From Rhodospirillaceae bacterium (GTDB lineage Bacteria > Pseudomonadota > Alphaproteobacteria > Rhodospirillales > 2-02-FULL-58-16): 18,185 nucleotides of DNA. Position 1 is the first letter of the stretch. Each line of letters opens with the position of its first letter. Positions 309 to 18,185 of this stretch are shown in pieces. A model generated the notes under the pieces. The model saw only the letters and a program-made list of their open reading frames with translations, was not told where the DNA came from and ran no database searches. A program made the translations under genes and the position numbers. Location: assembly GCA_030623425.1 (NCBI GenBank), contig JAUXMA010000004.1, forward strand, positions 1 through 18,185, written 5' to 3'.

Positions 309-330
309 GGGAAGTTACGCCCCCAGGAAG

Positions 331-1167: not shown

Positions 1168-1280
1168 ATAAAAGTTTGCACACTATTTAGATGTTTAATA
1201 ATGGATGCCCCCGTCCTTCAAGGGCGGCCATAACGATTGCTAACGGCTGGTGATTCGACCGGTACGGAAGGAATGAGCGC

Positions 1281-1320: not shown

Positions 1321-1481
1321 GAGTCCTTGGAGGAATGATCTTGGAATGATCTTACTCGCAAATATGACAGCGGAAGCTGACGTTTTCCTTACAATTTAAA
1401 AAATTTGCTCACAACAATCCATTTTCAGAGTCTTCACCGGTTTGTTATGCTGGGTTTCGGTTGGACGACAAGGGGACAAGA

Positions 1482-1700: not shown

Positions 1701-1728
1701 GCGGACGGCGCGCCGCATTTTCCGCCGG

Positions 1729-2805: not shown

Positions 2806-2827
2806 GGGCTTCGGTTTTTTTTAACTT

Positions 2828-3655: not shown

Positions 3656-3692
3656 TGGGCCAAGCCAAAGCGTTCATTGACAGGTTGGCGGC

Positions 3693-3720
3693 ATCCTACA
3701 CAAAAAATCCGTAATGGCAA
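3693..3720 (-). promoter_or_regulatory. candidate fabI promoter
   Basis: On the minus strand TTGCCA (3720-3715) and TAGGAT (3698-3693) are 16 bases apart, predicting a start near 3686 and a leader of about 30 bases. The MITE-like element begins at 3726, only five bases upstream of the -35, so sequences that would normally lie upstream of this promoter have been replaced by the element. Confidence 0.5.
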
Positions 3721-3725
3721 AAGCC

Positions 3726-3970
3726 TAGTGGCCTGTATCATCTAAATTGCACCCCTTCGGGTCGCTTTTCCCGTTTCCTCGGTAGGCTTGAGGGAAACCG
3801 TGGCGCCGGTGGCGCCGCGTAAGTCCCCGAAAGGCTGCGCCTGCCTGCGCGAAGCCGGAGCTTCGCTTCGGCGAAGGCAGGCCGTGATGGGAAGGCCATT
3901 ACAAGCAGTATCCGACGCCGACCACGGGTCAAGGAGAGACGCCCGAAGGGTGGACCAAATCAGGCCTCCC
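3726..3970. mobile_element. degenerate MITE-like element, copy A
   Basis: It begins CTAGTGGCCTGTATCATC at 3725, matching the reverse complement of the end of the complete copy at 17946-18153. The internal 42-base core (3840-3881), a Pro/Arg-looking palindrome built on GCGAAGC...GCTTCGC, matches the core at 18041-18082 on the opposite strand with one difference. The right end is eroded: CGCCCGAAGGGTGG near 3940 and CAGGCC at 3961 align with the other copy's CGCCCGAAGGGGTG...CAGGCCAC. Orientation is opposite to the copy at 17946. No transposase is encoded, so movement would need an enzyme in trans. Confidence 0.75.
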
Positions 3971-4135
3971 GGGCGTTGCGGTAAACGCGCAAAAATTTTT
4001 CCGGGTCTTCCATTCAGGCAGATCCCAAGCCGAGTTTCGATTCCAGGCCGGTAACGCCGGCTTTGAAGGGTAACGTGGCCGGCCGCGTCTCAATCCCTAA
4101 ACCGCCCTCCCCGCCGCTACCCGCGGGCGCCGACG
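3971..4135. other. intergenic remainder between element copy A and lipoprotein gene
   Basis: No convincing frame is present. It contains several GC-rich short palindromes such as CCGGTAACGCCGG near 4047 and GGCCGGCC near 4078. Any of these could end transcription of the minus-strand lipoprotein gene, but none has a following T run. Confidence 0.4.
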
Positions 4136-4612
4136 TCAGCGGACGATCTTCCAGGTGCCATCGGGCTGCCGGCAAGCGCGGCCGAAAGCCTTTTCCATGC
4201 GCCCGCCGACGTTGATGGTCGTCTCGTACTCACGGCAATTCTGTCCACTGAGCGTTTGGTAAGTGCGGGTCGGCGTGTAAGTTCCCGAATGGCCACTGTC
4301 CGGATTTTGCCACGTCGAAGTCTGGCCTATCTTATTGTGTTCCAAACTGTTCTGGGCGGTGCGTGCGGCGTATAAACGGTCAGCCTTGTCCAGGGACTTG
4401 CCGATTTCACTGCCGGCCCAGGCACCGGCCAGGGTACCGATCGCCACCGCCGCAAGTCTTCCTCGGCCCTTGCCGACTTGCGAGCCGGCGAGGGCACCGA
4501 CACCGGCGCCAAGCAGGGTGCCAATGGACTGTTTCGGTCTTTCTTGCGCGTCGGCGCAAGCAGCAAAGAAAAGAACGGCCACAAGTGTCAATGTGATACG
4601 TTTGCTGTTCAT
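4136..4612 (-). CDS. glycine-zipper 17-kDa surface antigen type lipoprotein
   Basis: A 158-residue protein. The longer upstream frame is rejected because ATG at 4612 is preceded by GGAGG about ten bases away and begins a clear export signal. Residues 1-19 have a KR n-region, the hydrophobic stretch ITLTLVAVLFFAA and Cys19, giving a lipobox FAAC, so lipidation at Cys19 is likely. Residues about 30-72 form a glycine-zipper pair (GTLLGAGVGALAGSQVGKG and AIGTLAGAWAGSEIGK) as in SlyB/17-kDa antigen and RT0821 proteins. The C-terminal half (TWQNPDSGHSGTYTPTRTY, NCREYETTI, ACRQPDGTWKIV) matches the conserved tail of that surface antigen family. Envelope location is well supported; exact function is unknown. 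It diverges from pdxH. Confidence 0.88.
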   Translation of the reverse strand: MNSKRITLTLVAVLFFAACADAQERPKQSIGTLLGAGVGALAGSQVGKGRGRLAAVAIGTLAGAWAGSEIGKSLDKADRLYAARTAQNSLEHNKIGQTSTWQNPDSGHSGTYTPTRTYQTLSGQNCREYETTINVGGRMEKAFGRACRQPDGTWKIVR

Positions 4613-4799
4613 GATTTGCCGGCCTCCGGTCAGCGGTTTCTTGACAAATGGAAGTGACGAACCTTCCTTGAACTCAAGGGTTTCCACAAACGGCCGCGGC
4701 CCGTGGCGCCGGTGATGAGGAAACGTCCGTTCGTGGCTCCAAGATGATTTCACGGTGGTGCGTTGACTTAAATATAACCCATTATACCGCAAAGACGAC
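4613..4799. promoter_or_regulatory. divergent promoter region, lipoprotein gene / pdxH
   Basis: Both genes must start from this 187-bp stretch. On the minus strand TATAAT occurs at 4787-4782 with a poor -35 (GTGGCA, 18 bases away, inside the pdxH start). On the plus strand TTCACG (4749-4754) and TATAAC (4773-4778) are 18 bases apart. TTGACT at 4763 has no well-spaced -10. The elements overlap, so opposing transcription could interfere. Confidence 0.35.
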
Positions 4800-5390
4800 A
4801 TGACTGCCACCACGAGCAAGGATCCGATCGCATTATTTCGAGTCTGGCTGACCGCCGCCGAAAAGTCCGAACCCAACGATCCCAACGCCATGACGCTGGC
4901 CACCGCGACGCCCGAAGGGGTGCCGTCGGCGCGCATGGTTCTGCTCAAGGAGGTGGACGAGCGCGGTTTCACTTTCTATACCAATCTGGCTAGCCGGAAA
5001 GCCACCGAACTGAACGCCAATTCAAGGGCGGCGTTGTGCTTTCACTGGAAGACCCTGCATCGTCAGGTCCTCGTTGAAGGGACGGTGAAGCCCGTCGATG
5101 AAGCGGAAGCCGACGCCTATTTCGCCAGCCGCCCGCGGATGAGCCGGATCGGGGCTTGGGCGTCCCAACAGTCGCGCCCCTTGGCGGGCAGATTCGAGTT
5201 GGAGAAACGGGTTGCCGAATTTACCGCCCGGTTTCATGTCGGTTCCGTGCCCCGTCCTGACTTCTGGTCGGGGTTCCGGTTGCTGCCCGAGCAGATCGAA
5301 TTCTGGCGGGAACGGCCGTTTCGTTTGCACGACCGGGTGGTTTATCATCGCCATGAAGGCGGTTGGCTGATCGAACGTTTGTATCCTTGA
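4800..5390 (+). CDS. pdxH: pyridoxamine 5'-phosphate oxidase
   Basis: A 196-residue FMN flavoenzyme that oxidises pyridoxine or pyridoxamine 5'-phosphate to pyridoxal 5'-phosphate with O2, the last step of vitamin B6 synthesis and salvage. FMN-binding blocks [20 protein letters not shown] (43-62) and SRKATELN are present. [14 protein letters not shown] (81-94) and [19 protein letters not shown] (110-128) follow, and the substrate-binding RLHDR (175-179) and terminal RLYP are intact. Length is slightly short of the E. coli enzyme because the N-terminal extension is reduced. Its TGA overlaps the ATG of the next gene by one base, indicating translational coupling. Confidence 0.96.
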
Positions 5391-6328
5391 TGTCTGACGC
5401 AACAGCACCGGCGGAAACTCAACCTTCCCTTTCGGCGGAGGCATGCGGACGGTTGATGACGCTTGCGGCCTTCGCCTCGGTTTCGGTGGCGTCGGTCCTC
5501 ATTGCGTGCAAGTTCGGCGCCTGGGTGGCCACCGATTCCCTCAGCTTGCTGTCGACACTGATCGATTCCTTCCTCGACGCCGGGGCGTCGCTGATCAATC
5601 TGCTGGCCATTCGCCGTGCCTTGCAACCGGCCGACCGGTCCCATCGGTTCGGCTACGGCAAGGCCGAGCCGCTGGCGGGGCTGGCGCAGGCCGCCTTCAT
5701 TTTCGGTTCGGCGGCTTTTCTGCTGATCGAGGCGGGGGAACGGCTTTTCCGCCCCAGTGACATTGAAAATACCGCCATCGGCTACGCCGTGATGGTGTTT
5801 GCCATCCTCCTCACCCTGGTCCTGGTGCTGTTCCAGAAGTACGTGGTGCGGCGGACGGGCTCGGTCGCCATCCGCGCCGATTCCCTGCACTACCAGACCG
5901 ACATCTTGATCAACGGCAGCGTCATTCTTTGCCTTTTTCTGACCGCCAATCTGGGATGGAGGTATGCCGACCCCTTGTTCGCCACCGGCATTGCCGCCTA
6001 TATCGTCTGGGGCGCTTGGCGGATCGGGTATGGGGCTTTTCATTTGATCTTGGACCGCGAACTGCCCGACGAAGACCGTCGGCGCATCAAGGAAATCGCG
6101 CTGGCCAATCCCGGCGTCCGCGGCCTGCACGACATGCGCACCCGTTCGTCGGGGCAGAGCATGTTCATTCAACTGCACTTGGAGATGGACGGGCAGTTGA
6201 CTCTTTTAGAGGCGCATGAGATCGCCGAGGACGTTATGCTCGCGGTCGAGCGCGTCTTTCCCGGGGCCGAGGTGTTGGTCCATGAGGATCCGGAAGGCGT
6301 TGCGGAAAGACGGACCATCTTCAAATGA
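5390..6328 (+). CDS. cation diffusion facilitator (FieF/CDF family) metal exporter
   Basis: A 312-residue inner-membrane protein. The ATG at 5390 overlaps the pdxH stop (TTGATG) and is preferred to an in-frame ATG at 5363 inside pdxH. About six hydrophobic segments precede a cytoplasmic C-terminal domain. The metal site of the family is complete: D59-SFL-D63 in the second segment and H167-YQT-D171 in the fifth, the same DxxxD/HxxxD set as FieF (Fe/Zn export). HRFGYGKAEPLAGLAQAAFI is a further CDF signature. The C-terminal domain from about 222 is the ferredoxin-like dimerisation fold with conserved HDMRTRSSG. It is probably a proton-driven Zn2+/Fe2+/Cd2+ exporter; which metal cannot be told. 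Confidence 0.93.
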   Translation: MSDATAPAETQPSLSAEACGRLMTLAAFASVSVASVLIACKFGAWVATDSLSLLSTLIDSFLDAGASLINLLAIRRALQPADRSHRFGYGKAEPLAGLAQAAFIFGSAAFLLIEAGERLFRPSDIENTAIGYAVMVFAILLTLVLVLFQKYVVRRTGSVAIRADSLHYQTDILINGSVILCLFLTANLGWRYADPLFATGIAAYIVWGAWRIGYGAFHLILDRELPDEDRRRIKEIALANPGVRGLHDMRTRSSGQSMFIQLHLEMDGQLTLLEAHEIAEDVMLAVERVFPGAEVLVHEDPEGVAERRTIFK

Positions 6329-6368
6329 TCCCGGCGCCATGCCCGTTTAACCGGGAGCCCCGTTCACG

Positions 6369-7907
6369 GTGATCGTCGAGGATCAAAGCGAAGTCATAAG
6401 GTTTCTGTCCGGCGCCGCGGCTTTCGGCATCGGCGGCGATGATGTGGCGCGCCTCGAAACTCATATTTCCATTATTTTCCTGACCGCCGAGAGGGTCTTC
6501 AAACTCAAGCGGGCGGTCAAGTTCCCCTATTTGGATTTTTCCACCGCCGATCGGCGCCGCGCCGCCTGCGAGGCCGAGGTCGCCATCAACCGGCGCACCG
6601 CGCCTGGCCTATACCGTGGAATCGTCGCCATCAAACGGGCCAGTGACGGTTCCTTGCACTTGCAAGGGGATGGCGAGCCGGTTGACTGGCTGGTGGAAAT
6701 GGCGCGTTTCGACGAGGATACACTGTTCGATCATTTGGCCCAGCGCGGCGAACTCGACCGCCATGACATGGAGAACCTGGCCGAGGCTATCGCCCGGTTG
6801 CACGGGATGGCGGAAAAACGTGCCGATCACGGCGGGCGGTCCGGCATGGCCGCCATCATTGACGGCAATGCCGAGACTTTCGACGAATTCGCCGAAGGCG
6901 GGCTCGATCCCGCCGAAATTGACCGGCTGAACGACGAATGCCGCCGTCTTCTCGACGACAGGGCCAGGTTTCTCGAGGCCCGGCGGGCGGCGGGATTCGT
7001 CAGGCATTGTCACGGCGACCTGCACCTTCGCAACATTTGCATGTACGACGGCGAGCCGACCCTGTTCGACGCCATTGAGTTCAGTGAGGCGCTGTCCAAT
7101 ATCGATGTGCTTTATGATCTTGCATTCCTGCTGATGGATCTGGACCACAGGGATTTGAGGCACCTCGCCAACATTGTCCTCAACCGCTATCTGGACATTA
7201 CCGCGGATACCGGCGGTCTCAAGGCGATGCCTTTGTTCCTTGCGGTTCGGGCCGCCATCCGCTCCCACGTCAACGTCGCCATGACGGCGACTCTCGATGA
7301 TGGCGGCGATGGCGAAGGGAGGCGCCAGGAGGCCCGATCCTACCTGAGCATGGCGTTGGCCTACGTTTCGCCGCCGCCGGCCCGCGTCGTCGCCGTCGGC
7401 GGCCTGTCGGGCAGCGGCAAGTCCCGCTTGAGCCGGGAACTGGCCCCTTGCATGGGAGCGCCACCGGGGGCTCGGCTAGCGCGCAGCGATGTCTTGCGCA
7501 AACGCCTGGCCGGTGTCCCTTGGCTGGCCCGCTTGGGGGCGGAAGGCTATTCGGAGGAGATGACCGAACGCACCTACCGGGAACTTTATGAAGAGGCGCG
7601 GACGGCCTTGGATGCCGGGTATTCGGTCATCGCCGACGCCGTCTTCGCTAAGCTCGAGCAGCGTCAGGCCATCGAGGCGGTGGCGGCCGAGGCCCGGGTT
7701 CCTTTTCAAGGCATTTGGCTGCAGGCGCCGCGAGAAATCATGGAACAACGCGTCCGCGACCGCCGCCGAAACGTTTCCGATGCGACCGTCGAAGTGGTCC
7801 GCCAACAACTTGCCTATAATTTAGGACCCCTGACTTGGCCCAGGATCGACAGCTCGGGTACGAGAGAGGATACCTTGTCGCAAGGACTTCACTTGCTCGC
7901 TCTTTGA
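6369..7907 (+). CDS. aminoglycoside phosphotransferase-like kinase fused to P-loop ATPase
   Basis: A 512-residue two-domain protein starting at GTG 6369, with GGGAG about ten bases upstream. Residues about 25-300 are an APH/choline-kinase-like fold: VFKLKRAVKFPYLDF (43-57) as the ATP-side strand, catalytic HGDLHLRN (215-222), and FDAIEF (233-238) taking the metal-binding place. Residues 338-500 form a small-molecule kinase or AAA-type domain with Walker A GLSGSGKS (345-352) and an Arg-rich lid RVRDRRRN. This architecture is a conserved bacterial family annotated only as bifunctional APH/ATP-binding protein, with unknown substrate. It lies 40 bases after the CDF gene and likely shares its transcript. 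Antibiotic resistance should not be assumed from the fold. Confidence 0.9.
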   Translation: MIVEDQSEVIRFLSGAAAFGIGGDDVARLETHISIIFLTAERVFKLKRAVKFPYLDFSTADRRRAACEAEVAINRRTAPGLYRGIVAIKRASDGSLHLQGDGEPVDWLVEMARFDEDTLFDHLAQRGELDRHDMENLAEAIARLHGMAEKRADHGGRSGMAAIIDGNAETFDEFAEGGLDPAEIDRLNDECRRLLDDRARFLEARRAAGFVRHCHGDLHLRNICMYDGEPTLFDAIEFSEALSNIDVLYDLAFLLMDLDHRDLRHLANIVLNRYLDITADTGGLKAMPLFLAVRAAIRSHVNVAMTATLDDGGDGEGRRQEARSYLSMALAYVSPPPARVVAVGGLSGSGKSRLSRELAPCMGAPPGARLARSDVLRKRLAGVPWLARLGAEGYSEEMTERTYRELYEEARTALDAGYSVIADAVFAKLEQRQAIEAVAAEARVPFQGIWLQAPREIMEQRVRDRRRNVSDATVEVVRQQLAYNLGPLTWPRIDSSGTREDTLSQGLHLLAL

Positions 7908-7953
7908 GCAGTCCTTGGTTCCCAATCCCTATGATGATTTTCTATTTCGGGAA

Positions 7954-7982
7954 TTGACACTTCCTGCTTATTCTGTTATACT
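7954..7982 (+). promoter_or_regulatory. near-consensus sigma70 promoter of the usp gene
   Basis: TTGACA (7954-7959) and TATACT (7977-7982) are 17 bases apart, a perfect -35, optimal spacer and one mismatch in the -10. Predicted start near 7989 gives a leader of about 45 bases before the ATG at 8034. It is the best promoter in the window, so constitutive or easily inducible expression is expected. Confidence 0.85.
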
Positions 7983-8033
7983 GATTACTTCGGTTGTTCT
8001 TGGAATTTACTCTTCGGGCAAACGGGGCCGTGA

Positions 8034-8885
8034 ATGCCGATCAAAACGATATTGGTGCTATTCGACGGTGGCAATGAGTCGAAATCGGCCTTGCAAACCG
8101 CTTTTGCGGTCGGCCGTGATGTGGCGGCCCATATTCATGTCCTTAGTTTACACGTCGATCCCGAGCCGTTCTTGGTCATGTCGGATGCCATGATCGAGAA
8201 AATGGTTGCTCAGCAGAGCAAGGAATCGGCGGACCGCGCCGCCAAGGCGCACGGTATTTTCGATGATCTTTGCTCCCGTTACGGCATCCCTTCGAGGGAT
8301 GGCCCTGGCGGACAGGAGGAAGTTTCGGCGGCCTGGATCGAGGAAACGGGGCACTATTACGAGACCATAATCCGGCGCGGGCGTCTGGCTGACTTGATCG
8401 TCGTCGGACGGGCGACGCCCGAGTCGGAACCTCCCGTCAGGATGATCTTGCACGCCGCGCTTTTCGAAACCGGCCGTCGGGTCTTGGTGGCGCCTCCGCT
8501 GGCGCCTTCTTCCCTGGGACGAAAGATTGCCATTGCCTGGAACGGCAGCGCCGAGGCCTCTCGTGCCGTCAGCAACGCCATCCCCTTTCTGACCCGTTCC
8601 GAGGCGGTGATTATCCTGACCGCCGAAACCGACAATACCCCGCTTTCGGTTGCCGACGATCTGGCCGCTTATCTGGCTTGGCACGGCGTTGCCGCCGAGA
8701 TTCGGGCTTTTTCTCCCGAGCGCCGGTCGGTGGAGGAAGCGTTGCTCGGGGAAGCTTCGAACTCTGGCGCCGACCTGTTGGTTATGGGCGGGTATTCCCA
8801 CTCGCGCATGCGCCAGTTGATCCTCGGCGGCGTCACCCGGCATGTTTTGGAGGCGGCGGAATTGCCGGTGCTGATGGCACACTGA
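8034..8885 (+). CDS. tandem-domain universal stress protein
   Basis: A 283-residue cytoplasmic protein with two UspA folds. Domain 1 (about 1-155) starts IKTILVLFDG and ends with RGRLADLIVVGRA...GRRVLVAP, but lacks an intact Gly-rich nucleotide loop. Domain 2 (about 163-283) starts RKIAIAWNGSAEASRAV. It carries MGGYSHSRMRQLILGGVTRH (251-270), the G-x2-G-x9-G-S/T type ATP-binding signature. One degenerate and one intact domain is the common pattern in proteobacterial tandem Usps. Such proteins support survival under starvation, oxidative or respiratory stress; the specific stress is not visible. It has its own strong promoter and converges on the SRAP gene with seven bases between stops. Confidence 0.94.
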   Translation: MPIKTILVLFDGGNESKSALQTAFAVGRDVAAHIHVLSLHVDPEPFLVMSDAMIEKMVAQQSKESADRAAKAHGIFDDLCSRYGIPSRDGPGGQEEVSAAWIEETGHYYETIIRRGRLADLIVVGRATPESEPPVRMILHAALFETGRRVLVAPPLAPSSLGRKIAIAWNGSAEASRAVSNAIPFLTRSEAVIILTAETDNTPLSVADDLAAYLAWHGVAAEIRAFSPERRSVEEALLGEASNSGADLLVMGGYSHSRMRQLILGGVTRHVLEAAELPVLMAH

Positions 8886-8892
8886 ACCGTGC

Positions 8893-9489
8893 TTAAGGCC
8901 GGGTTTGGCGAAACAGGTCCGGTTGATATCCCGTGGCAACCGCTTCCTCCGCCTTGAGGGGGATTTCGTCAAAGGGAACGAGGAACGCCGCCGCTTCGCC
9001 GAAAGCAAGCGTTCTGTCCAGCCACATGCCCTCGGCTTGCGGCTTGAGGATCACCGGCATGCGGTTGTGAATTCGGGCGATGGCCGGAACGGGCCGGCAA
9101 GTGATAATGGTGAAATTTTCCCAGTCCATGAGCCCGGCGAAGGCGATCGGTTCGCCGTCCTTGCGGCTGATGCGGTTCTTGAGCTTGGCTTTGCCTTCTT
9201 TCCGCCATTCAAAATAAGCCGAGGCCGGGACCAGGCAACGGTTTTCAAGCCAGGGCCGGAAACTCTTTTTGCCGGCCAGGGTTTCGGCGCGGGCGTTGAT
9301 CAAGGGTTGGTTGCTCCAAGAGACACGCAGCCCCCAGCTCCGAAACAGCGGTTGTCTGTCGGCATTAATGACCAAGGCCCGGTTGCCGGGGCGGATTTCA
9401 TATCCGCGCGGTTCCGGCGGCGGGCCGGAAAGTTCGAACCGGCCGACCAGTTTTTCCGGCTGGACGTTGATCTCGTATCGGCAGCACAT
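8893..9489 (-). CDS. SRAP / YedK-type abasic-site crosslinking protein
   Basis: A 198-residue SOS-response-associated peptidase family member, related to E. coli YedK and human HMCES. These form a thiazolidine crosslink between Cys2 and abasic sites in single-stranded DNA, protecting them at forks. All expected residues are visible: Cys2 in MCCRYE, N65 in LINARAET, E94 in AYFEW, and H141 in IHNRMPVIL. MCC replaces the more usual MCG, giving two adjacent cysteines. The start is fixed by the need for Cys2. A TATAAT ends only eight bases before the ATG with no ribosome binding site between, suggesting a leaderless transcript. No LexA-type GTTC-N7-GTTC box was found upstream. Confidence 0.95.
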   Translation of the reverse strand: MCCRYEINVQPEKLVGRFELSGPPPEPRGYEIRPGNRALVINADRQPLFRSWGLRVSWSNQPLINARAETLAGKKSFRPWLENRCLVPASAYFEWRKEGKAKLKNRISRKDGEPIAFAGLMDWENFTIITCRPVPAIARIHNRMPVILKPQAEGMWLDRTLAFGEAAAFLVPFDEIPLKAEEAVATGYQPDLFRQTRP

Positions 9490-9497
9490 GAGACGGT

Positions 9498-9503
9498 ATT
9501 ATA
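9498..9503 (-). promoter_or_regulatory. TATAAT -10 candidate for the SRAP gene
   Basis: The perfect hexamer TATAAT on the minus strand lies eight bases before the SRAP ATG, so transcription would begin at or next to the start codon. The -35 at 17 bases (CGGGTT) is poor. An 11-base tandem repeat, ATACCAAGAAG then ATACCAAGAAA (9501-9522), fills the spacer. Confidence 0.4.
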
Positions 9504-9644
9504 CCAAGAAGATACCAAGAAACCCGCGGCGGCAGCGAGGATGGTCAGGCCCATCATCCACATGGCTCGGCGATGGCGAGGAAATCACGTTTCCAGCCTG
9601 TCGAGGACTGGAATCGTATCTTCATTTGTCCTAACGTCCAGGAA

Positions 9645-10385
9645 ATGGAAACAGGCCGCAAAACCGTCATCGTCACCGGCGCCAGCCGTGGCATTGGTCA
9701 CGCCACCGCCACCTGCTTCCTGGAAAGGGGCTGGCGTGTGATCACCTGCTCACGCGGGGACACACCGCCCGAATGCAAGCGCGATCGCAACTGGACCCTT
9801 CATGTTCCCACCGACCTTGCCGACGCCAACAGCCTCGAAAATTTTGTCGAAACGGTAAACGAGGCCCTTGCCGAACAGCCCTTGCATGGGCTCGTCAACA
9901 ACGCCGGGATGTCGCCGAAAGCGCCGTTCCAGGAACGTCTGGGCTGTCTCAACGGCGATCTCGAAGCCTGGCGGGATGTCTTCGAATTGAATTTCTTCGC
10001 CGCCCTGAAATTGTCCCGGGGCTTTGCCGCCGCCCTGCGCAGGGGCAAGGGCGCCATCGTCAACATCACCTCCATTGCCGGCCATTCGATTCATCCTTTC
10101 GCCGGATCGGCCTATTCGATCTCCAAGGCGGCCTTGTCGGCGCTGACTCGGGAAATGGCCAACGAATTCGCGTCGCTCCAAGTGCGCGTCAACGCCGTCG
10201 CCCCCGGTGAGATCGAAACCGCCATGGTTCAACCCGAATACGAGGCGCTGATTCCGCGCATCCCCCTCAACCGCATGGGCCAACCCGAGGACGTGGCGAA
10301 CACCATCTTCTATCTCTGTTCCGAGGATGCCGGCTACGTCACCGGTAACGAGGTCTGGGTCACCGGCGGCCAGCATCTCTTTTAG
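9645..10385 (+). CDS. SDR family NAD(P)-dependent oxidoreductase
   Basis: A 246-residue classical short-chain dehydrogenase. Cofactor loop TGASRGIG (11-18), NNAG (85-88), and the catalytic S143, Y157 and K161 (in ITSIAG and YSISK) are in place. The C-terminal NRMGQPEDVANTIFYLCSED...GNEVWVTGG is also standard. The ATG at 9645 puts the Rossmann strand at the family's usual distance. An in-frame ATG at 9573 would add 24 residues unlike the family and is less likely. The 'CSRGDTPP' segment after the second strand does not settle NAD versus NADP. The substrate is unknown; FabG-like acyl and sugar dehydrogenases share these motifs. Confidence 0.9.
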   Translation: METGRKTVIVTGASRGIGHATATCFLERGWRVITCSRGDTPPECKRDRNWTLHVPTDLADANSLENFVETVNEALAEQPLHGLVNNAGMSPKAPFQERLGCLNGDLEAWRDVFELNFFAALKLSRGFAAALRRGKGAIVNITSIAGHSIHPFAGSAYSISKAALSALTREMANEFASLQVRVNAVAPGEIETAMVQPEYEALIPRIPLNRMGQPEDVANTIFYLCSEDAGYVTGNEVWVTGGQHLF

Positions 10386-10456
10386 GAGAACCGTTCAACG
10401 GAGGATTAAGGAAACAGAAGTTCCACAACAATCTATATTTGGTTATGGATCAGCAT

Positions 10457-10485
10457 TTGCCGACAAGATATAGATGATGTATGAT
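10457..10485 (+). promoter_or_regulatory. candidate promoter of the 25-residue-repeat gene
   Basis: TTGCCG (10457-10462) and TATGAT (10480-10485) are 17 bases apart, in an AT-rich interval between the SDR stop and the start at 10535. Predicted leader about 40 bases. Confidence 0.5.
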
Positions 10486-10534
10486 GCAAGCGCCATCCTG
10501 GGACGGCTTTTGAAAAGCAAACGGGAAAGCGCCC

Positions 10535-13500
10535 ATGACCGACATGCATCGAATGCAAAAAGATGACGCCAAGCAGACCATCCAGGTTGTCTACGATGAA
10601 GACACCGCCGTTGACGAACACCCGATCGGCAAGGGTCCGGCCGCCGAGACAAAAAGGGTCGATCCAGCGGACGGAATAGCCAATGCCGCCGCCAACCTTT
10701 CCCCCGATCCCAGCGCCATCCTCGATGATTGGACGCCACCGTTTTACTTAAAATATCGGTTGCCGAGCATTGCCGGGATCGTGACCAGCCTTTCCTGGCT
10801 GATCGCTTGCGCTTATTACATCGACCGCCAGATCATTTGGAGCGATTTATTTTCCCTTTTGCCCCATGAAATAGCGGGCATGGTGGTGGGCGTTCTGACG
10901 CCACTGGCTTTGCTGTGGATGGTGATCGCATTTTTCGAGCGGGGGCGGCGACTGAGCCACGAAAGCGAGGCCCTGGGGTGGCATTTGAGAAAGCTGGCCT
11001 ATCCGTCCGACCGCGCCCAAACGCGGATGAGAGAAATCACCGAATCCTTGCGCTGCCAAGCCCGGGACTTGACCAAGGCCTCGGAGGAAGCGGCCTCGAG
11101 GGCGGAAGCCGTCGATGAAATGATTCGGCGGCGGACGGTAGGGCTGTCGCAGGTTTCCGAAGACGCGGATTTGCGGGCCCGGGCCATCGCCGAGGTGCTC
11201 GGGCGACAGACGGAAGACCTGCGGACGACGACGGAGAAGGCTGCGGAACGGGCTCGCCAAGCCGGTGAAGTGCTGTATCGGCAGTCCCACGAATTGACGA
11301 CATCGGCCGACCGAGCTTCGGCCCAGGCCGAAGACTTTTGCCAAGTCCTGCACCGACGCAGCCATGAATTGACCGAGACTTCGGAACAAGTCGCCGCCCG
11401 CACCCGGGAATCCGCCGATTCTTTCCAAGAGCGGACCAGGGAACTGGGTGAGATTTCAACTCAAACCCTGGCCTATGCGGATGAAACGGCCAAGGTCCTG
11501 CATGCACGCATGGAAGAGCTATTGCAAGCCTCCGACGATGCCGCCGAACAGGTTCGGGCTGGCGCCGAACTGTTGCACAGGAACTCCCAGGATCTCAACC
11601 GGCGGTCGGACCACGCGACCATGCAAACCGATCTGATCCGCGAAAACCTTCGCCAGCAAACCGAGGGCCTTGCCGATATTGGCAAACTGTTAACGGCCCA
11701 AACGTCCGAGATCGAAGTCAATCTGGGCCGGCAGGCGCAATTGCTGTCGGGGACCGCCGACAAGGTTGGCGAACAGGTTCGGGGAATCGGCGATGAATTG
11801 CAGGGCCAGGCCCGTGAATTGGTTTCCACATCCGAGCATGTTTCGCTGCACCTCAAGGCCAGCAGCGAGGCTTTCCACAAGCAAGCCGGCGAACTGAGTG
11901 AAGTTTCCGACCGCACAACAGCCAAGACCAGGACCCTCGGTGAAAACCTCCAGCAAATCTCCCAAGAGCTCTCGATCGTATCGGACAAGCTTCTGGACAG
12001 GGCGGACCGCGTTGGCGAAGCGTTGAAAAGCCGTTCCTCCGACCTGTCGGAGATTTCCGATCATACGCTGGTCAAGGTCGACAAGGTCGGCGAGAGCATC
12101 CAACACCGGGCCAGCGATTTGGCCGAATTGTCGAACCAGTGCCTATTGCGTTTCGGCAACGTCAGCGATTCCTTGCGGCAGCGGTGCGCGGAACTGGCCA
12201 CCGTCGCCGACCAGACAAGCAATCATGTCGGCTCTCTTAGCGTGGCTTTGGAACAAAGTTCGGAAGAGGTGGTTACGGCCTCGCAAAAAGGCGCCGCCGG
12301 CATCACCTCGGCGACGCAAGCGTTGCGCCGCGGCGTGATCGAGATCGACGCGACTTCCGGGCGGGCGAGCCAGCTCGTCGAATCCTTCAACGAACAATTG
12401 CATGGCATCACCGACATTTCGGAAGCGGCAATGACCAAGTTGCGGGACTTGAGCATGGCGGTTGAGGACCGGTCCGGAGAAATAACCGTTGCCTCGGATC
12501 AGGCGGCCAGCCAGATGGACGGCGTTGCCGCGCTGTTGGGGCAACAGGCGCAAAAATTGGATCACATCTCGGGCCGGGCGACGAAATTGATGACCAACGC
12601 CGTCATGCAATTGCAAAAACACTCTCAAGAACTGGATGGCTCCTCGGATAAAGCCGAAGCGCGGCTGCAAAATGTCGGCGAGGAGATGCAACGGGTCTTG
12701 CAAGAGGTGATAGCGGCCGCCGACGACGCCTCGGCCAGGGTTCAGGCGGTGGCCGGGAACTTGCAACAGCGTTCGGACGACCTTTCCGCCGTTTCCGGCC
12801 AGGCCGTCGGCGATGTCGGCATGGTGGGAACCGCCCTCTTGGAACGCTCGCGCGAGGTGGCGAGCGCCGCGGACCGCGCTTCCAGGCTGATTGCCCTGGT
12901 CACCGAAGCCATGCACCGCCAGGCCGAGGACTTAACGGGTTCCACCAGCCATACGGCCGAACGCATGGAGAGCACCAGCGAAAATCTGCTCAAACACTTG
13001 GTCGAACTGGGCCGGCTCGGCGACGATACCGCCGGCCGGCTGACGGTGGCCGGCAAATCCCTGCGCGTGCAATCCGAGGAATTGAGCAACGCCTCGAACT
13101 TGACGATCGGCCGATTTCAGGAAACCACCGGTTGCCTGCAAGAAGGTGTCCGCGTGTTGGGCGAAGCCTCCGATTCCGCTTCCACCCACATCGAGGCGGT
13201 TGGCGGAACCATGCGCGAGCATATGCAGGACGCGACCACCGCCACGGAACGGGCGGCGGCGCGGCTGGAAGGGATCGCCGGTTCGTTGCGCCAACATAGC
13301 AACGACATCAACGCTTCCCTGGAATCGGCCGGCAAGGGGCTCGGAGATGTCGGCGACATGCTGCAGCAACGCTCCAAGGATCTGACCGACGTTTACGGCG
13401 CGGCATCGGGCCACCTCAGGGCTTTTGGCGACATCCTCCATCAACAAGCGGCGGGAATGTCGTCCGCTTCCAACGAGGCGACAGCCAAGCTTGGCAAGGT

Positions 13501-14722
13501 GGGCGATGGCATCCAGGAACGCTCCCACCAAGTCACCGCGTCGGTGGATCGGGCGGTGAAGTTGTTGGGCCTTGTGACGAGCGCCCTGCACCGCCAATCC
13601 CTGGACCTGACCGCCGATGCCGGGCGGGCAACGAATCAGGTGGCTTCCTTCAGCGATTCCCTCACCGAGAGTTCGAACCAACTGAACGGTCTTTCCGAGC
13701 GCACCTTCTCTCATCTCAATGATGTCGGACAGGGTTTGCGGGAATGGGCGCGGGAATTGTCGAGCCTGTCGCGTCAGGCGACGGCCGATATGGATGGCGC
13801 GTCCGACGCTCTGCATCTTCGCTCCCGGGAATTGACCGCCGCCTCGGAGGAAGCGGTCGCTCAACTTGGCCGTGTCGACAAGTTGATGACCCAGCATTCG
13901 GACGAAGCCGTTCGAAAAACCGACCACAGCGCCGCCAAGCTGAACAAGGTGGGAAAAACCATCCATCGGCATTCCCGGCAAGCGTTCGCCATGTCAAGCC
14001 AGATCGCCGACAAGTTGGAAGGCGCCCGCGATGTCCTCCACCGGGGTATGCAGGAATTGACGGTCTCCTACGGAGAAACGGAAGAGGGCGTCAAGTCCTT
14101 GAGTGAGACGCTGAGCCTGCGGGCCGGCGAGATCGGCAAGGTGGCGGGCGAAACCCTGCTCAAGATGGAGGTTTGGGACAAAACCTTGAGCGAGCGGTCG
14201 CAAGGGTTGAGCAATGCCTCGGATGAGATGACCAGACAGGCCCTGGAGGCGACCGAGACCATCGACAGCCGAACCCAAGCGATGAAGGAGGTTTCGAGCG
14301 AAGCCGCGACGCTTGTGAATGAACTGAAAGAGCGGACGGAGCAAGTCGGCATCGCCGATTTCCTGCGCCGCGCCACATTCATCACGGAACGCTTGCAGTC
14401 GCTCGCGGTCGACATGACCCGGTTGCTGGAAACCCATATCAGCGAGGACGATTGGCGCCGTTTCAACAAGGGCGAAAAGGGAATATTTGTCCGCAAGATG
14501 CTGGGTTTCAAGGAGAAATCCCGGCTTGCCGCGATCCGGCGAAAATACCAGGAGGATGGGGAGTTCAGGGATTATGTAGACCGTTACCTCATCCAGTTCG
14601 ACAGCTTCTTGAAAGAGGCGAAGAAACGGGATCACCGGGAGGTGTTAAGCACCACCTTCCTGTCCTCGGACATAGGCAAGGTTTACATGCTGCTGGCCCG
14701 GGCGCTCGGCCGGGATATCTGA
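10535..14722 (+). CDS. giant membrane-anchored coiled-coil protein with 45 tandem 25-residue repeats
   Basis: A 1395-residue protein in four parts. Residues 1-72 are a polar, probably disordered cytoplasmic tail. Two hydrophobic helices (about 76-96 and 113-133) form an inner-membrane hairpin; YLKYR before and FERGRRL after put both ends in the cytoplasm. Residues 146-1266 are 45 head-to-tail units, each 25 residues except unit 20 (621-641), which has 21. The loose consensus is xLxxRSxELxxxSDxAxxx(V/L)xxVGE, with core positions 2, 6, 9, 13, 16, 20 and 23, which is a 7-7-11 coiled-coil pattern rich in Ser/Ala. Residues 1267-1395 are a non-repeated domain (DFLRRATFI, MTRLLE, EDDWRRFNKGEKGIF, DIGKVYMLLARALGR), which resembles the tails of other long Rhodospirillales hypothetical proteins by memory. 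No enzymatic motif is present. The anchor-plus-rod plan recalls Caulobacter TipN, but homology is not claimed. Confidence 0.93.
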   Translation: MTDMHRMQKDDAKQTIQVVYDEDTAVDEHPIGKGPAAETKRVDPADGIANAAANLSPDPSAILDDWTPPFYLKYRLPSIAGIVTSLSWLIACAYYIDRQIIWSDLFSLLPHEIAGMVVGVLTPLALLWMVIAFFERGRRLSHESEALGWHLRKLAYPSDRAQTRMREITESLRCQARDLTKASEEAASRAEAVDEMIRRRTVGLSQVSEDADLRARAIAEVLGRQTEDLRTTTEKAAERARQAGEVLYRQSHELTTSADRASAQAEDFCQVLHRRSHELTETSEQVAARTRESADSFQERTRELGEISTQTLAYADETAKVLHARMEELLQASDDAAEQVRAGAELLHRNSQDLNRRSDHATMQTDLIRENLRQQTEGLADIGKLLTAQTSEIEVNLGRQAQLLSGTADKVGEQVRGIGDELQGQARELVSTSEHVSLHLKASSEAFHKQAGELSEVSDRTTAKTRTLGENLQQISQELSIVSDKLLDRADRVGEALKSRSSDLSEISDHTLVKVDKVGESIQHRASDLAELSNQCLLRFGNVSDSLRQRCAELATVADQTSNHVGSLSVALEQSSEEVVTASQKGAAGITSATQALRRGVIEIDATSGRASQLVESFNEQLHGITDISEAAMTKLRDLSMAVEDRSGEITVASDQAASQMDGVAALLGQQAQKLDHISGRATKLMTNAVMQLQKHSQELDGSSDKAEARLQNVGEEMQRVLQEVIAAADDASARVQAVAGNLQQRSDDLSAVSGQAVGDVGMVGTALLERSREVASAADRASRLIALVTEAMHRQAEDLTGSTSHTAERMESTSENLLKHLVELGRLGDDTAGRLTVAGKSLRVQSEELSNASNLTIGRFQETTGCLQEGVRVLGEASDSASTHIEAVGGTMREHMQDATTATERAAARLEGIAGSLRQHSNDINASLESAGKGLGDVGDMLQQRSKDLTDVYGAASGHLRAFGDILHQQAAGMSSASNEATAKLGKVGDGIQERSHQVTASVDRAVKLLGLVTSALHRQSLDLTADAGRATNQVASFSDSLTESSNQLNGLSERTFSHLNDVGQGLREWARELSSLSRQATADMDGASDALHLRSRELTAASEEAVAQLGRVDKLMTQHSDEAVRKTDHSAAKLNKVGKTIHRHSRQAFAMSSQIADKLEGARDVLHRGMQELTVSYGETEEGVKSLSETLSLRAGEIGKVAGETLLKMEVWDKTLSERSQGLSNASDEMTRQALEATETIDSRTQAMKEVSSEAATLVNELKERTEQVGIADFLRRATFITERLQSLAVDMTRLLETHISEDDWRRFNKGEKGIFVRKMLGFKEKSRLAAIRRKYQEDGEFRDYVDRYLIQFDSFLKEAKKRDHREVLSTTFLSSDIGKVYMLLARALGRDI
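10970..14332 (+). repeat. 75-bp coding tandem repeat array, 45 units
   Basis: This is the DNA encoding residues 146-1266 of the repeat protein. Units are 75 bp (unit 20, 12395-12457, is 63 bp). They are conserved in protein pattern but strongly diverged in bases; short shared words such as GAATTGAC recur. That indicates old duplication followed by selection on helix phase rather than recent slippage. Confidence 0.9.
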
Positions 14723-16192
14723 GCTTTCATCCGGCGGGGGATTGCCCGGCGCCGGCGCCGCGGTGGCGCTCTTGTTCTTGCAAGCGCGGACGAAATCGAC
14801 GAAACGCCGGGTCCAGCGGTTGCCGCCGACGTCGCGCATATGGGCAAAGCTGGCCAACAGGTTGTTGATCACAAGCCCGTCGTGGCGTCCGTCGATGCCG
14901 GACCCGCGCAGGACTTCGTATGCGAAAACCGGCTCGAAGCCGAGGTTTTCCAGACTGGAATAATGGAACTCGTGGGCCGGCAACTCTTGCCGCCGGCCGC
15001 TGTCGTCCAACGGCGGCCATGGGCAGCGGCCGGTCTCCCTGAGCCGCACGTAGCCGCGTCCTTGCGGTTTTTCGTGCATGAGCGCGTCGGCGGCGATGAC
15101 GCCGGCCATCTCGCGAACGACTCCTCGCCAGGAAAGAGAACGGGCAAGATACATCAGACCACCGCATTCCGCGTAAGTCGGCAGGCCGGCCTCGATGGCG
15201 TCGCGGATTTGCCGGCGCAGGACGGCGTTGGCTTCCAGCTCCGCCATATGGGTTTCCGGAAATCCGCCGCCGATGATGAGACCGTCGATCTCGGCAAGCC
15301 GGGAATCGCTCAACAAGTCGATTGGCACCAATTCCGCCCGCGCCGCCGCAAGGGCTTCCAGGTCGTCGGGGTAGTAAAAGCCGAAGGCCCGATCCCGGGC
15401 AACGCCGATCCTGACGTCGGGCGTTGCCGCCGCCGGGCGCGGCAGTGGCGACGCGGCCAGGGACGGCGCCGCTATCTCCAACAGACGGTGCAGGTCCACC
15501 TGCCCGGAAATGGCCGCGGCGATGGCGGCGATCTTGGTTTCGGCATCGGCGACTTCGTTGCTTGGAATGAGCCCCAAGTGCCTTTCCGGGATTTCCAGTC
15601 GCGGCTCACGGTGGACGGCGCCCAGGACCGGCACGTCGGTGTAATGTTCGAGGGCGGCGCGGAGCTTGGCTTCGTGGCGGCCGCCGCCGATCTTGTTGAA
15701 AATCACGCCGGCGATTTGAGCCATCGGCTCGAAGGCTTGGTACCCCAGAATCAAAGGGGCGACGCCGCGGGTCATGCCGCCAGCGTCAATGACCAGCACC
15801 ACCGGCGCGCCGAGCAAGCCGGCAAGCGCCGCGGTGGAGTCGCCGCCGGCCAGATCGAGCCCGTCGTAAAGCCCCTTGTTGCCTTCGACGAGGGAAAAAT
15901 CGGCGCCGTCGGAATGGCGCGAGAATGTGGCGATGATCTCTTGTTGGGTCATGGTGTGGTAATCGAGGTTGCGGCACGCCCGGCGGCACGGGAAATCGGC
16001 CGCGCCCGCCGCCGCCGGTTCGGGGCGGTTAAGCGAAGCGGCGGCGGTCAGCCACATGGGGTCGATGTAATCCGGGCCCTTCTTGAAAGGCTGAACGACG
16101 TGGCCGCGCTGGACGAGCGCCCTGATGATGCCCGTGGAAACCATGGTTTTGCCCGATGACTTGCGGGCCGCCGAGATCAGAAGATGGGACAT
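14645..16192 (-). CDS. cobB: cobyrinate / hydrogenobyrinate a,c-diamide synthase family (CobB/DsrN type)
   Basis: A 515-residue ATP- and glutamine-dependent amidase. The N-terminal half is a dethiobiotin-synthetase-like ATPase with SAARKSSGKT (7-16), KKGPDYIDPMWL (37-48), VEGNKGLYDG (102-111) and DSTAALAGLLGAPVVLVID. The C-terminal half is a class I glutamine amidotransferase with LIIGGGFPETH (305-315), nucleophile C343 in TYAECGGLMYL, and HEFHYSS (407-413). Family members are usually about 430-470 residues. The excess here is an Ala/Gly/Pro insert (about 57-68) and a Pro-rich tail after 472. The end HDGLVINNLLASFAHMRDVG resembles the DsrN siroheme-amidase branch, so cobalamin precursor and siroheme are both possible substrates. 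The 3' end overlaps the repeat-protein gene by 78 bases in convergent orientation. Confidence 0.88.
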   Translation of the reverse strand: MSHLLISAARKSSGKTMVSTGIIRALVQRGHVVQPFKKGPDYIDPMWLTAAASLNRPEPAAAGAADFPCRRACRNLDYHTMTQQEIIATFSRHSDGADFSLVEGNKGLYDGLDLAGGDSTAALAGLLGAPVVLVIDAGGMTRGVAPLILGYQAFEPMAQIAGVIFNKIGGGRHEAKLRAALEHYTDVPVLGAVHREPRLEIPERHLGLIPSNEVADAETKIAAIAAAISGQVDLHRLLEIAAPSLAASPLPRPAAATPDVRIGVARDRAFGFYYPDDLEALAAARAELVPIDLLSDSRLAEIDGLIIGGGFPETHMAELEANAVLRRQIRDAIEAGLPTYAECGGLMYLARSLSWRGVVREMAGVIAADALMHEKPQGRGYVRLRETGRCPWPPLDDSGRRQELPAHEFHYSSLENLGFEPVFAYEVLRGSGIDGRHDGLVINNLLASFAHMRDVGGNRWTRRFVDFVRACKNKSATAAPAPGNPPPDESSDIPAERPGQQHVNLAYVRGQEGGA

Positions 16193-16195
16193 GGT

Positions 16196-16315
16196 TCAAG
16201 CCGCCAAACGTTCCCTAGTGGTCTGTATCATCTCCTCTTCGGTCAAGGGGCGCGACGTTCTCGGTCCCTTGCCGACGATGCGTGCGTACTGGCCGAAAGG
16301 ATGTTCCTCGCTCAT
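16196..16315 (-). pseudogene. 39-codon remnant resembling the start of a TrpD2-like glycosyltransferase gene
   Basis: The minus-strand frame from ATG 16315 to TGA 16198-16196 reads EHPFGQYARIVGKGPRTSR near its start. That resembles, from memory, the N-terminus of TrpD2/YbiB-like glycosyl transferase family 3 proteins (about 320 residues), which share an HPFxQYxRIxGKG opening. After PLTEEE the frame runs into MIQTTR, encoded by the 18-base repeat-element end at 16233-16216, then ERLAA and a stop. The rest of the gene is missing. The stop lies three bases before the cobB ATG, so the piece could still act as a leader frame coupled to cobB. It may be expressed but would lack the catalytic domain. 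Confidence 0.6.
16216..16233. repeat. terminal fragment of the MITE-like family
   Basis: TAGTGGTCTGTATCATCT matches, over 18 exact bases, the reverse complement of the right end of the complete copy (18136-18153). It includes the TA boundary and lies in CTAG context. Nothing of the element interior is left beside it, so it is a deletion scar or abortive copy. Confidence 0.65.
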
Positions 16316-16637
16316 GGCCGTTCCGTTATCCCGGCATGGAAGATATAGGTATGATTGATTCCAGTTTTATATTGCTTTGGCGGTTTTTGCATTCCTTGAT
16401 GTTTTCCCGTTTAAATCCGCCGTCTCGTCGGGCCGGCGGAAGTGGGGGTCGATGTCGGCGCCGGCGAGGCTGACGGGCAGGATGGGTAGTACTTTTACCG
16501 CCAACGCGACTAGTACAGTACAGCGCAATTAACGACCGCGCCGCCTTGGTGGACGATGGCGCTGAAAACCACTTGCTCCGGCGGGGCGCGTTTGCCGACG
16601 GCTCGGGGACGAACGGACAAAGGGAGACAAAGCGAGC
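16316..16637. other. gene-free gap, 322 bp, between the cobB side and heme A synthase
   Basis: No frame here is convincing. A TTG-started 53-codon minus-strand frame (16528-16367) has a hydrophobic start but no ribosome binding site. GTACAGTAC (16514-16522 region) is a 9-base palindrome of a kind used as a TetR-type operator, without further support. Promoters for both flanking genes must lie here; none with good elements was seen. Confidence 0.45.
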
Positions 16638-17684
16638 ATGACTGATCCAATCCTCCGCCGGCACGACAGGGTAATCGCCATGTGGCTTTTCGCCGTCATT
16701 GGCATGGTCTTCGCCATGGTCGTCCTAGGGGGAGTGACCCGCTTGACCCACTCGGGGCTGTCCATGGTCGAATGGAAACCATTGACCGGCTGGCTGCCGC
16801 CGCTGAACGAAACGGAATGGCAAGCCGCTTTCGGCCAGTACCGGCAATTTCCCGAATACGCGGCATTCAACCCAGGCATGACCCTGTCCGGGTTCAAGGC
16901 CATTTTCTTGCTGGAGTATACGCACCGTCTGTGGGGACGCTTGATCGGCACCGCTTTTTTGCTTCCCGGCCTTTACTTTCTCTTCCGCGGCTGGCTGAGC
17001 CGGCGGCTGGCGGCAAAGCTTTTGCTGGCCTTCGTTCTCGGCGCGGCGCAGGGCGGACTGGGCTGGTACATGGTGAAAAGCGGACTTATCAAGCATCCCG
17101 ATGTCAGCCAGTATCGCCTGACCGCGCATCTAGGATTGGCGCTGGCCATCCTCGGCTACATGTCATGGTTGGCGTTGGGGCTGTTGAAGCCGGAGCCCGA
17201 CCCGGAACGGATCCAGCAGCCGGGCCATTTATGGGGCGCGGCGATCGCCTTGGCGGGCCTGATCACCGTCACCGCCCTCTCGGGTGGGTTTGTCGCCGGT
17301 CTCGACGCCGGCTTTGTCTACAATACCTTTCCCCTGATGGATGGCCGGCTGATTCCCGATGGCCTTTTTTCCTTGCATCCGCTTTGGCGCAATTTTTTCG
17401 AGGACATCGCCACGGTGCAGTTTGTTCACCGGTCGCTGGCCGAAACGGTATTGCTGGCGGTCGGGGTGTTTTGGATCGGCGCCCTCGGGAAACGACTGGC
17501 GCCCCGTACACGCCTGGCCGTCAATGTTTTGGGCCTGGCGGCGGCGATCCAGGTCGGCCTGGGAATTTCCACCCTGGTGCTTGTGGTTCCGCTACCCCTT
17601 GCCGCCGGCCACCAAGCCTCGGCGGTGGTCCTGTTCTTTGCCTCGCTGTGGGTCGCTCATCGGCTGCGGCCAAGCCGGGAGTGA
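16638..17684 (+). CDS. ctaA: heme A synthase (COX15/CtaA type)
   Basis: A 348-residue inner-membrane enzyme with about eight hydrophobic segments. It oxidises the C8 methyl of heme O to a formyl group, giving heme A for aa3-type cytochrome oxidase. The four conserved heme-ligand histidines are visible: H96 in LLEYTHRLWGR, H164 in RLTAHLGLAL, H264 in QFVHRSLAE and H325 in AGHQASAVVLF. GGVTRLTHSGLSMVEWKP (31-48) and the NTFPLMDGRLIP block (229-240) are typical of the alphaproteobacterial/mitochondrial class. AGGGAG lies about 13 bases before the ATG, a little far but acceptable. No other oxidase genes are nearby. The symbol could equally be given as cox15. Confidence 0.95.
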   Translation: MTDPILRRHDRVIAMWLFAVIGMVFAMVVLGGVTRLTHSGLSMVEWKPLTGWLPPLNETEWQAAFGQYRQFPEYAAFNPGMTLSGFKAIFLLEYTHRLWGRLIGTAFLLPGLYFLFRGWLSRRLAAKLLLAFVLGAAQGGLGWYMVKSGLIKHPDVSQYRLTAHLGLALAILGYMSWLALGLLKPEPDPERIQQPGHLWGAAIALAGLITVTALSGGFVAGLDAGFVYNTFPLMDGRLIPDGLFSLHPLWRNFFEDIATVQFVHRSLAETVLLAVGVFWIGALGKRLAPRTRLAVNVLGLAAAIQVGLGISTLVLVVPLPLAAGHQASAVVLFFASLWVAHRLRPSRE

Positions 17685-17694
17685 CGGAGGCTCG

Positions 17695-17931
17695 TCATTT
17701 CTTGAACGTCTTGTGAGGATTCTTCATCGTTTCGATGGCTGACTCGAAAACCATGCGCACCTGCTCTTCGTCGCAGCCCATGAGCAAGGCGTCTTCGAAG
17801 GCGTCCTGACAGGATTGGCGGATCTCCTCGAGGTTCTCATTGAGCACCTTCAGCTTCTCCTCGCAGGTGACGGGGCTGCCGTCGGGCTGCCGCCAGACGA
17901 TCTGGCGTTGCTTGGGTTTTTTCGTGTTCAT
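17695..17931 (-). CDS. small conserved-looking hypothetical protein, 78 residues
   Basis: A compact, charged, soluble protein: a basic start (NTKKPKQRQ), then VWRQPDGSPVTCEEKLKVL, then a helical region with QDAFEDALLMGCDEEQVR. It has no signal peptide or membrane segment. I recall similar short proteins in other Rhodospirillales, but I assign no function. A weak GGAAAG lies about six bases before the ATG. The stop is ten bases from that of heme A synthase, in convergent orientation. The complete MITE-like element begins only 14 bases upstream of the ATG, so the promoter lies in or beyond the element. Confidence 0.75.
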   Translation of the reverse strand: MNTKKPKQRQIVWRQPDGSPVTCEEKLKVLNENLEEIRQSCQDAFEDALLMGCDEEQVRMVFESAIETMKNPHKTFKK

Positions 17932-17945
17932 TTAGCTTTCCACCC

Positions 17946-18153
17946 TAGTGGCCTGCGTCAGCCAAAGTGCACCCCTTCGGGCGGCCTTGCGAGGCTTCCG
18001 GACGTCGTCGCGCGCCGCTTGTGGTGCACAGACACCACGGCCTGCCTTTGCCGAAGCGAAGCTCCGGCTTCGCGCAGGCAGGCGCGACGCGCTCCTAGCC
18101 GGAAACCTCGCAACGCCGTCGTAGGGGTACAATTTAGATGATACAGACCACTA
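17946..18153. mobile_element. complete MITE-like element, copy D, 208 bp with TA boundaries
   Basis: Both ends lie in CTAG, with a TA at each border (17946-17947, 18152-18153), as expected if the TA target was duplicated. The terminal arms run inward for about 55 bases with imperfect complementarity: GTGGCCTGCGTCAGCC on the left against GTGGTCTGTATCATCT from the right end, then CACCCC/TACCCC and TTGCGAGGCTTCCGG/TTGCGAGGTTTCCGG. Inside are a hairpin GTGGTG-cacaga-CACCAC (18021-18038) and the 42-base core palindrome (18041-18082) shared with copy A. No frame in it reads like a transposase. TA duplication points to IS630/Tc1-mariner type mobilisation in trans, which is inference. Confidence 0.8.
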
Positions 18154-18185
18154 GCCGAATTGAAAACTCCTCGGCATGTCATCGA

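Follow-up and report, generated by a model that had tools for sequence, protein, structure and literature searches.

The 18,185-nucleotide window analyzed here (contig JAUXMA010000004.1, positions 1 to 18,185 of the forward strand, from a Rhodospirillaceae bacterium, assembly GCA_030623425.1) contains at 10535..14722 on the + strand an open reading frame (ORF) whose translation is a protein of 1395 residues, called the rod protein in the following. It consists of an N-terminal membrane hairpin, a rod of 45 helical units and a small C-terminal domain, and is probably a cytoplasmic scaffold of the cell pole or the division site, anchored in the inner membrane and belonging to an alphaproteobacterial superfamily that includes the rhizobial pole organizers RgsE and GPR (growth pole ring protein of Agrobacterium, a homologue of RgsE). 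This reading builds on the repeat, its register, its fixed length, a conserved stutter, the hairpin, the C-terminal domain and the homology of both end modules. New here are a rod that is exact to the residue and carries the same stutter in 38 of 97 measured proteins of the order, and rod units that are position-specific.

Self-comparison of residues 146-1270 gave the highest scores at lags of 25 (z = 24.6), 75 (20.7), 50 (20.3) and 100 (20.0). The next-best lag of 120 scored z 8.0, and the maximum over 500 shuffles at any lag was 4.5. Together with the unit borders this defines a rod of 1121 residues (146-1266; 10970..14332, +), which is composed of 19 units of 25 residues (146-620), one unit of 21 (621-641) and a further 25 units of 25 (642-1266). 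A model that had seen only the letters of this DNA (the sequence-only reading) had arrived at the same borders, the same number of units and the same period. The consensus of the 25-residue unit is ALRRRAEELTAASDRAAARLEAVGE. On an alignment of 38 proteins the seven core columns are 2, 6, 9, 13, 16, 20 and 23, exactly those proposed before. Val, Ile, Leu, Met and Phe account for a fraction of 0.98 at column 2, 0.93 at column 9, 0.71 at column 20 and 0.64 at column 23. Small residues (Ala, Ser, Thr or Gly) occupy columns 6, 13 and 16 with fractions of 0.78, 0.87 and 0.83, in line with the Ser and Ala noticed earlier at many core positions, and polar or charged residues do not exceed 0.05 at any of the seven. 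Tandem Repeats Finder (minimum score 30) detected no DNA tandem array inside the rod when applied to 10500-14750; its sole row was a 10-bp repeat with a score of 30 at 14390-14411, outside the rod. The period is thus maintained at the protein level and not at the level of the bases, as had been suspected. A conserved Tyr-Pro motif interrupts unit 1, so that the uninterrupted rod helix begins at about residue 159. If the rod is a single helix without fold-back, its length would be about 166 nm.

A match to the family was present in 49 of 60 genomes of the window's order, its own genome included. From these, 44 proteins (including the query) could be read, the other five genomes containing only pieces, and the strongest lag was 25 or 50 in all 44. 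A wider census added 60 proteins to give 104; 97 had both anchors, and seven were excluded for a missing anchor. The rod distance from anchor to anchor was exactly 1140 residues in 38 of the 97, the query among them, exactly 730 residues in 15, and took other values from 679 to 1924 residues in 44. When the 37 homologues of equal length were compared with the query over the gapless rod, identity was 33% in register, 20-21% at offsets of +-25 and on average 7.6% at other offsets. The in-register offset was best in every case (37/37), although identity to the query fell as low as 25%, and the rod units are therefore orthologous one to one. Neither of the two outcomes named beforehand as refuting the sequence-only reading occurred, since the 25-residue period is present and close homologues stay in register. 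This fits the earlier claim that the 25-residue phase has been under long selection.

Conservation along the rod peaked in units 1-6, in residues 764-813 (12824..12973, +; 0.48 and 0.41) and in residues 989-1013 (13499..13573, +; 0.46), a unit that by eye resembles unit 764-788. The remaining units after unit 6 ranged from 0.21 to 0.36; in this count the unit borders past the short unit were three residues off, which does not affect the peak regions. Length differences from 1140 of up to 130 residues showed 16 distinct values, nine of them multiples of 11 (P = 2.7e-6 if independent, which they are not fully), two more of +-7 and none a multiple of 25. From this pattern, rod length changes mostly by the coiled-coil steps of 7 and 11 residues.

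The 21-residue unit (residues 621-641; 12395..12457, +) is a stutter in which 7-7-7 replaces 7-7-11, and it is kept in all 38 proteins of equal length. A phase model detected a shift of phase by four residues close to residues 605-624 in 38/38 of them, and in 36 it was the only step. The model was trained on the same 38 proteins; two further controls were free of such training. Comparison of the first with the second rod half within each protein gave an offset of 21 in 38/38, and comparison of each half with itself an offset of 0, again in 38/38; as the second control, a profile built from the first 19 units of the query alone located the step in 36/38. The 730-residue group shares a different step of +11, located about 630 residues before the end in 15/15 proteins, and five of the 15 have additional steps closer to the N end. 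In relative L052 the stutter recurs at 601, 797, 993 and 1189, and L053 has one more. Since the 196-residue blocks are 53% (L052) and 63% (L053) identical at lag 196, seven full units and the short unit must have been duplicated together as a block; the duplication signal is less clear in L036, with 32% at this lag.

Such constancy raises the question of whether the exact length is itself the function. A molecular ruler of this kind would keep the head a fixed distance away from the membrane, or would define how large a ring or cage becomes; docking sites at fixed heights would be provided by the units at 764-813 and 989-1013. The two shared lengths, the divergence of the first group down to 25% rod identity, the stutter at the same place in 38/38 proteins and the two regions that stand out among position-specific units all speak for it. 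The 44 proteins with other lengths and the duplicated 196-residue blocks demonstrate that rod length is not universal; moreover, long coiled coils as such resist small insertions and deletions, and the 38 proteins, being of common ancestry, are not independent. We regard the ruler as a possible, but rather doubtful explanation. In the myosin tail, phase breaks known as skip residues are conserved, and by analogy the regular core pattern with its conserved stutter could reflect lateral assembly. Rods would then pack side by side beneath the membrane as a filament or sheet, and length, register and stutter would be kept because neighbors must match. The hexameric ring of GPR, described in the part of the GPR paper covered here (PMC8262873), also points in this direction. 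The units are not interchangeable, however, as the drop from 33% identity in register to 20-21% at +-25 shows, and we consider lateral assembly unlikely.

Hydropathy analysis revealed only two membrane helices, residues 76-94 (10760..10816, +) and residues 108-126 (10856..10912, +), the second of which overlaps a conserved LPHE motif in the alignment. An AlphaFold2 prediction of residues 55-225 (mean predicted local distance difference test (pLDDT) 85.9, predicted template modelling score (pTM) 0.47, 18 sequences) places one helix at 76-100 and another at 110-155; the helix is then broken at the Tyr-Pro motif, and the rod helix sets in at 159. The C-terminal helical domain comprises residues 1275-1395 (14357..14719, +), of which about 115-120 form the conserved part. 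In the prediction for the last 172 residues (mean pLDDT 87.1, pTM 0.66, 28 sequences) a single helix extends out of the rod as far as about residue 1297, and six short helices follow. The predictions covered the two ends of the rod, with a continuous helix into it at both, rather than its middle.

The C-terminal domain connects the rod protein with a large group of proteins. In a first protein search, which yielded 18 proteins (two of them named as sphingomonads), the best alignment ended at query residues 1392-1393 in 18/18, with 21-35% identity. The domain was found in 152 of 387 genomes of the class, in 147 of 198 of the window's order, in 292 of 297 of a Rhizobiales-type order (assigned by inference), in 245 of 247 of family f179 and in 119 of 119 of family f41 (sphingomonad-like by inference), usually as one copy per genome. 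A tblastn search with the complete protein sequence hit six of 72,556 plasmid records, including CP090106.1 of S. meliloti Ak57 (37.9% identity over the 116 residues 1278-1393, E = 2e-18). The matching coding sequence is labelled 'kinesin', has 2089 residues and matches PF01442 in 12 stretches with 257.8 bits. The parts of the RgsE paper covered here (PMC7327166) describe RgsE of S. meliloti as a protein of 2,089 residues with up to ten apolipoprotein domains and a predicted two-helix membrane anchor, name RgsA, RgsS and TolQ as its partners and already report distant homologues in Rhodospirillales. From its species, length and domain, and not from the sequence of SMc00190, we take the 2089-residue protein to be RgsE-type.

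The N-terminal hairpin was aligned with 13 RgsE-type N termini by hhalign with a probability of 94.4 (E = 8.5e-8), and the control with the rod segment of the same 13 proteins reached 1.0; this alignment also supports the segment of helix 2. Both types of protein have two hydropathy helices. Both end modules are homologous to those of the RgsE-type protein, and by them the rod protein is a distant relative of RgsE (SMc00190) and GPR (A. tumefaciens Atu1348). With these it shares the two N-terminal membrane helices, a homologous N-terminal segment, a long helical repeat rod, the C-terminal domain and the usual single copy, the comparison being based on S. meliloti Ak57 and Rhizobiales-type proteins. 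RgsE and GPR belong to polar growers that lack MreB, and about 1,700 residues of continuous helix are ascribed to them; the rod protein has a repeat of 1121 residues of which the two ends were modelled as continuous helix. The earlier interpretation of a helical rod tethered to the membrane and built on a 7-7-11 core holds, but its statement that no characterised bacterial family is defined by this unit has to be modified in view of these distant kin; its guess of a polar or envelope spacer agrees with the relationship to proteins of the growth pole. In the covered portions of the papers on GPR and RgsE no 25-residue unit was found, the words 'repeat' and 'periodic' are absent from the GPR paper, and a single term search of the literature found no report of a 25-residue repeat in a bacterial coiled coil.

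Two further groups may be compared with the rod protein. TipN is the new-pole landmark of Caulobacter. In the parts covered of the respective papers, TipN is a polar organizing protein to which GPR is called similar (PMC8546619) and has 882 residues (PMC13170164); compared by description only, it differs in its much shorter rod. The sphingomonad-type proteins (P0012 of Allosphingosinicella, P0014 of Sphingobium and those of family f41) have two hydropathy helices and the C-terminal domain, but their periodicity is weak (z under 7) and most are shorter than 1,100 residues. Comparison of the C-terminal domain with solved folds yielded none that stands out. No Pfam family exceeded its cut-off in this domain of the rod protein, the S. 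meliloti protein, two rodless proteins or an 875-residue protein of family f41 (DUF6058 17.2 bits, cut-off 25). In both S. meliloti and Sphingomonas, a gene with an Hpt domain is annotated immediately upstream of the one for the family protein and on the other strand (L172:2102-2470 and L173:1820-2113).

The period of the rod is not the same throughout the class. In 22 Rhizobiales-type proteins the top lag was 11, 22, 33 or 44 in 17, 29 in four and 40 in one, and lag 25 scored only 0.9 to 6.3. Elsewhere in the class, 25 or 50 was the top lag in 16 of 20 proteins of one set. Judged from the class-level sets the 25-residue unit is widespread, and the 11/22 unit, assessed without a tree, looks like a rhizobial departure. 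A strong match to PF01442 accompanies the 11/22-residue period. Lipid binding, as argued for GPR, is worth weighing for the rod protein, given the 257.8 bits of its RgsE-type relative and the weak matches of two relatives with a 25-residue period, P0002 and P0003 (44.6 and 54.7 bits, below the cut-off of 90). The rod protein itself reaches only 14.7 bits, and as the strong match is tied to the 11/22 period it may reflect the helical period instead. We consider an apolipoprotein-like function very unlikely here. The apolipoprotein likeness of GPR may likewise be explicable by its helical period without lipid binding, although this is not proof.

PADLOC profiles of ZorA also match the rod, with 43.7 bits at best, which would suggest that the rod is a tail comparable to the long one of ZorA, mechanosensory or linked to a channel. 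The matches are confined to the coiled-coil tail (residues 572-1252), a MotA-like channel head does not accompany the two membrane helices, and no ZorB look-alike was present among the window neighbors examined; such a role is extremely improbable. SMC was rejected as an identity, with 33.9 bits against a cut-off of 567 (best stretch 439-742) and no ATPase family found. Myosin rods, SMC proteins and ZorA tails resemble the rod protein in their very long helical repeats and differ from it in that it has no motor, ATPase head or channel and shares no end modules with them.

A connection with the division or pole apparatus is indicated by a rodless paralogue. In the window's own genome, a paralogue of 301 residues without a rod (L045 2094-2999) directly follows an ftsZ gene; two ftsZ genes exceed the cut-off in this genome, and this is the second. 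The arrangement recurs in genus mate G001, where a contig end truncates the protein, and in G043 from another family. The loci of ftsZ with a rodless paralogue in these three genomes are L045:565-2999 (G000:C366), L046:764-2800 and L049:917-3470. Aligned with the window family by hhalign, three rodless proteins gave 98.5% for the hairpin and 91.6% for the C-terminal domain. For the rodless relatives L047, L048, L050 and L112, inspection by eye of the longer ORFs in the fetched stretches revealed no ftsZ. Family f49 shows weak matches to the C-terminal domain in short ORFs (330-354 residues) of three genomes (L110, L111 and L112). The ORF at L112:748-1776 includes a membrane hairpin ahead of the domain; judged by eye, greA-like and moeA-like ORFs flank it. 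MreB exceeded the cut-off in 53 of 60 relatives of the window, for which reason a role in polarity or division is to be expected rather than one in polar growth; no MreB over the NCBIfam cut-off was found in the window's genome and G001 (same genus, each about 90% complete). Elsewhere in the window, 331-1059 (-) encodes a fusion of a rhodanese domain with a HigA-family antitoxin (92.8 bits to TIGR02607, above the cut-off), and 6369-7907 (+) a protein of 512 residues in which a phosphotransferase (APH) domain is joined to a P-loop AAA_33 domain. Both domains exceed their Pfam cut-offs, and no NCBIfam model matched this protein at E 1e-5. Of 120 chorismate synthase relatives listed, seven bear an organism name (Rhodospirillales five, Rhodospirillaceae one, Alphaproteobacteria one), which makes an uncultured member of this group the most likely source of the window.

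For the scaffold we infer a cytoplasmic topology, an oligomeric state, a polar location, partner binding and a function along the following lines. The two-helix hairpin would anchor the protein in the inner membrane and leave its N and C termini on the cytoplasmic side. From there a straight coiled-coil rod, made of units with 25 residues (7-7-11) and measuring about 166 nm without fold-back, would lead directly into the small helical C-terminal domain, which may serve as a partner-binding head. Together with a small number of specialised rod units, this head could position partners at fixed distances from the membrane; the expected site would be the cell pole or the division site. Deletions in GPR provide a comparison: in the covered part of its paper (PMC8262873), loss of the last 221 residues abolished the restoration of shape, loss of the last 10 led to abnormal restoration, and the ring still formed without the last 332.

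Several observations weigh against this reading. The deletion of 332 residues in GPR keeps more function than that of 221, so that loss of the domain alone cannot explain the phenotype, and the domain is placed in GPR by analogy, without the GPR sequence. RgsE and GPR have about 2,100 residues, the rod protein being 700 residues shorter, and in them a proline-rich stretch precedes the C-terminal domain, whereas in the rod protein the helix continues into the domain. Because this stretch and a match to PF01442 (14.7 bits) are missing, we do not class the rod protein as GPR; the weak PF01442 matches of P0002 and P0003 in turn mean that this likeness extends beyond the 11/22 period. According to the covered part of PMC7327166, RgsE homologues of Rhodospirillales may have a different role, and with MreB in 53/60 relatives as opposed to the MreB-less RgsE/GPR growers, this role need not be polar growth. 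None of the genomic neighbors of the rod gene points to a partner. Other results complicate the simple picture of the repeat and of the family. The hairpin match to sphingomonad-type proteins is weak (hhalign 42.0). The top lag was 25 or 50 in only 7 of 19 proteins of a second class-level set (20 stretches, one without a family gene) and in 3 of 18 proteins of the first search. The query-only profile found the phase step in 36/38 proteins instead of 38. Finally, L051, which has an excess of 196 residues, shows no raised identity at lag 196, so that recent copying of a block does not account for every longer rod.

A wider idea, which we put forward tentatively and hold to be more doubtful than probable, is a superfamily of bacterial molecular rulers, in which two fixed end modules would be joined by a rod of swappable units of 25, 29 or 11/22 residues. 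Each lineage would keep its own residue-exact length and stutter, and the rod would set the distance from the envelope to the pole or division assembly. The rodless paralogue beside ftsZ would then be the zero-length version, and the GPR ring one elaboration.

Loss of the shape proteins GPR and RgsE severely disturbs growth, and the rods of both have been read as apolipoprotein-like. Our analysis suggests an alternative for this family, with conserved end modules and a rod that acts as an exchangeable spacer whose helical period varies by order. Judged by its position, the conserved C-terminal domain, which has no Pfam family, should lie within the functionally required part of GPR. The system would allow length, register and stutter to be changed unit by unit as a test of a cellular protein ruler.

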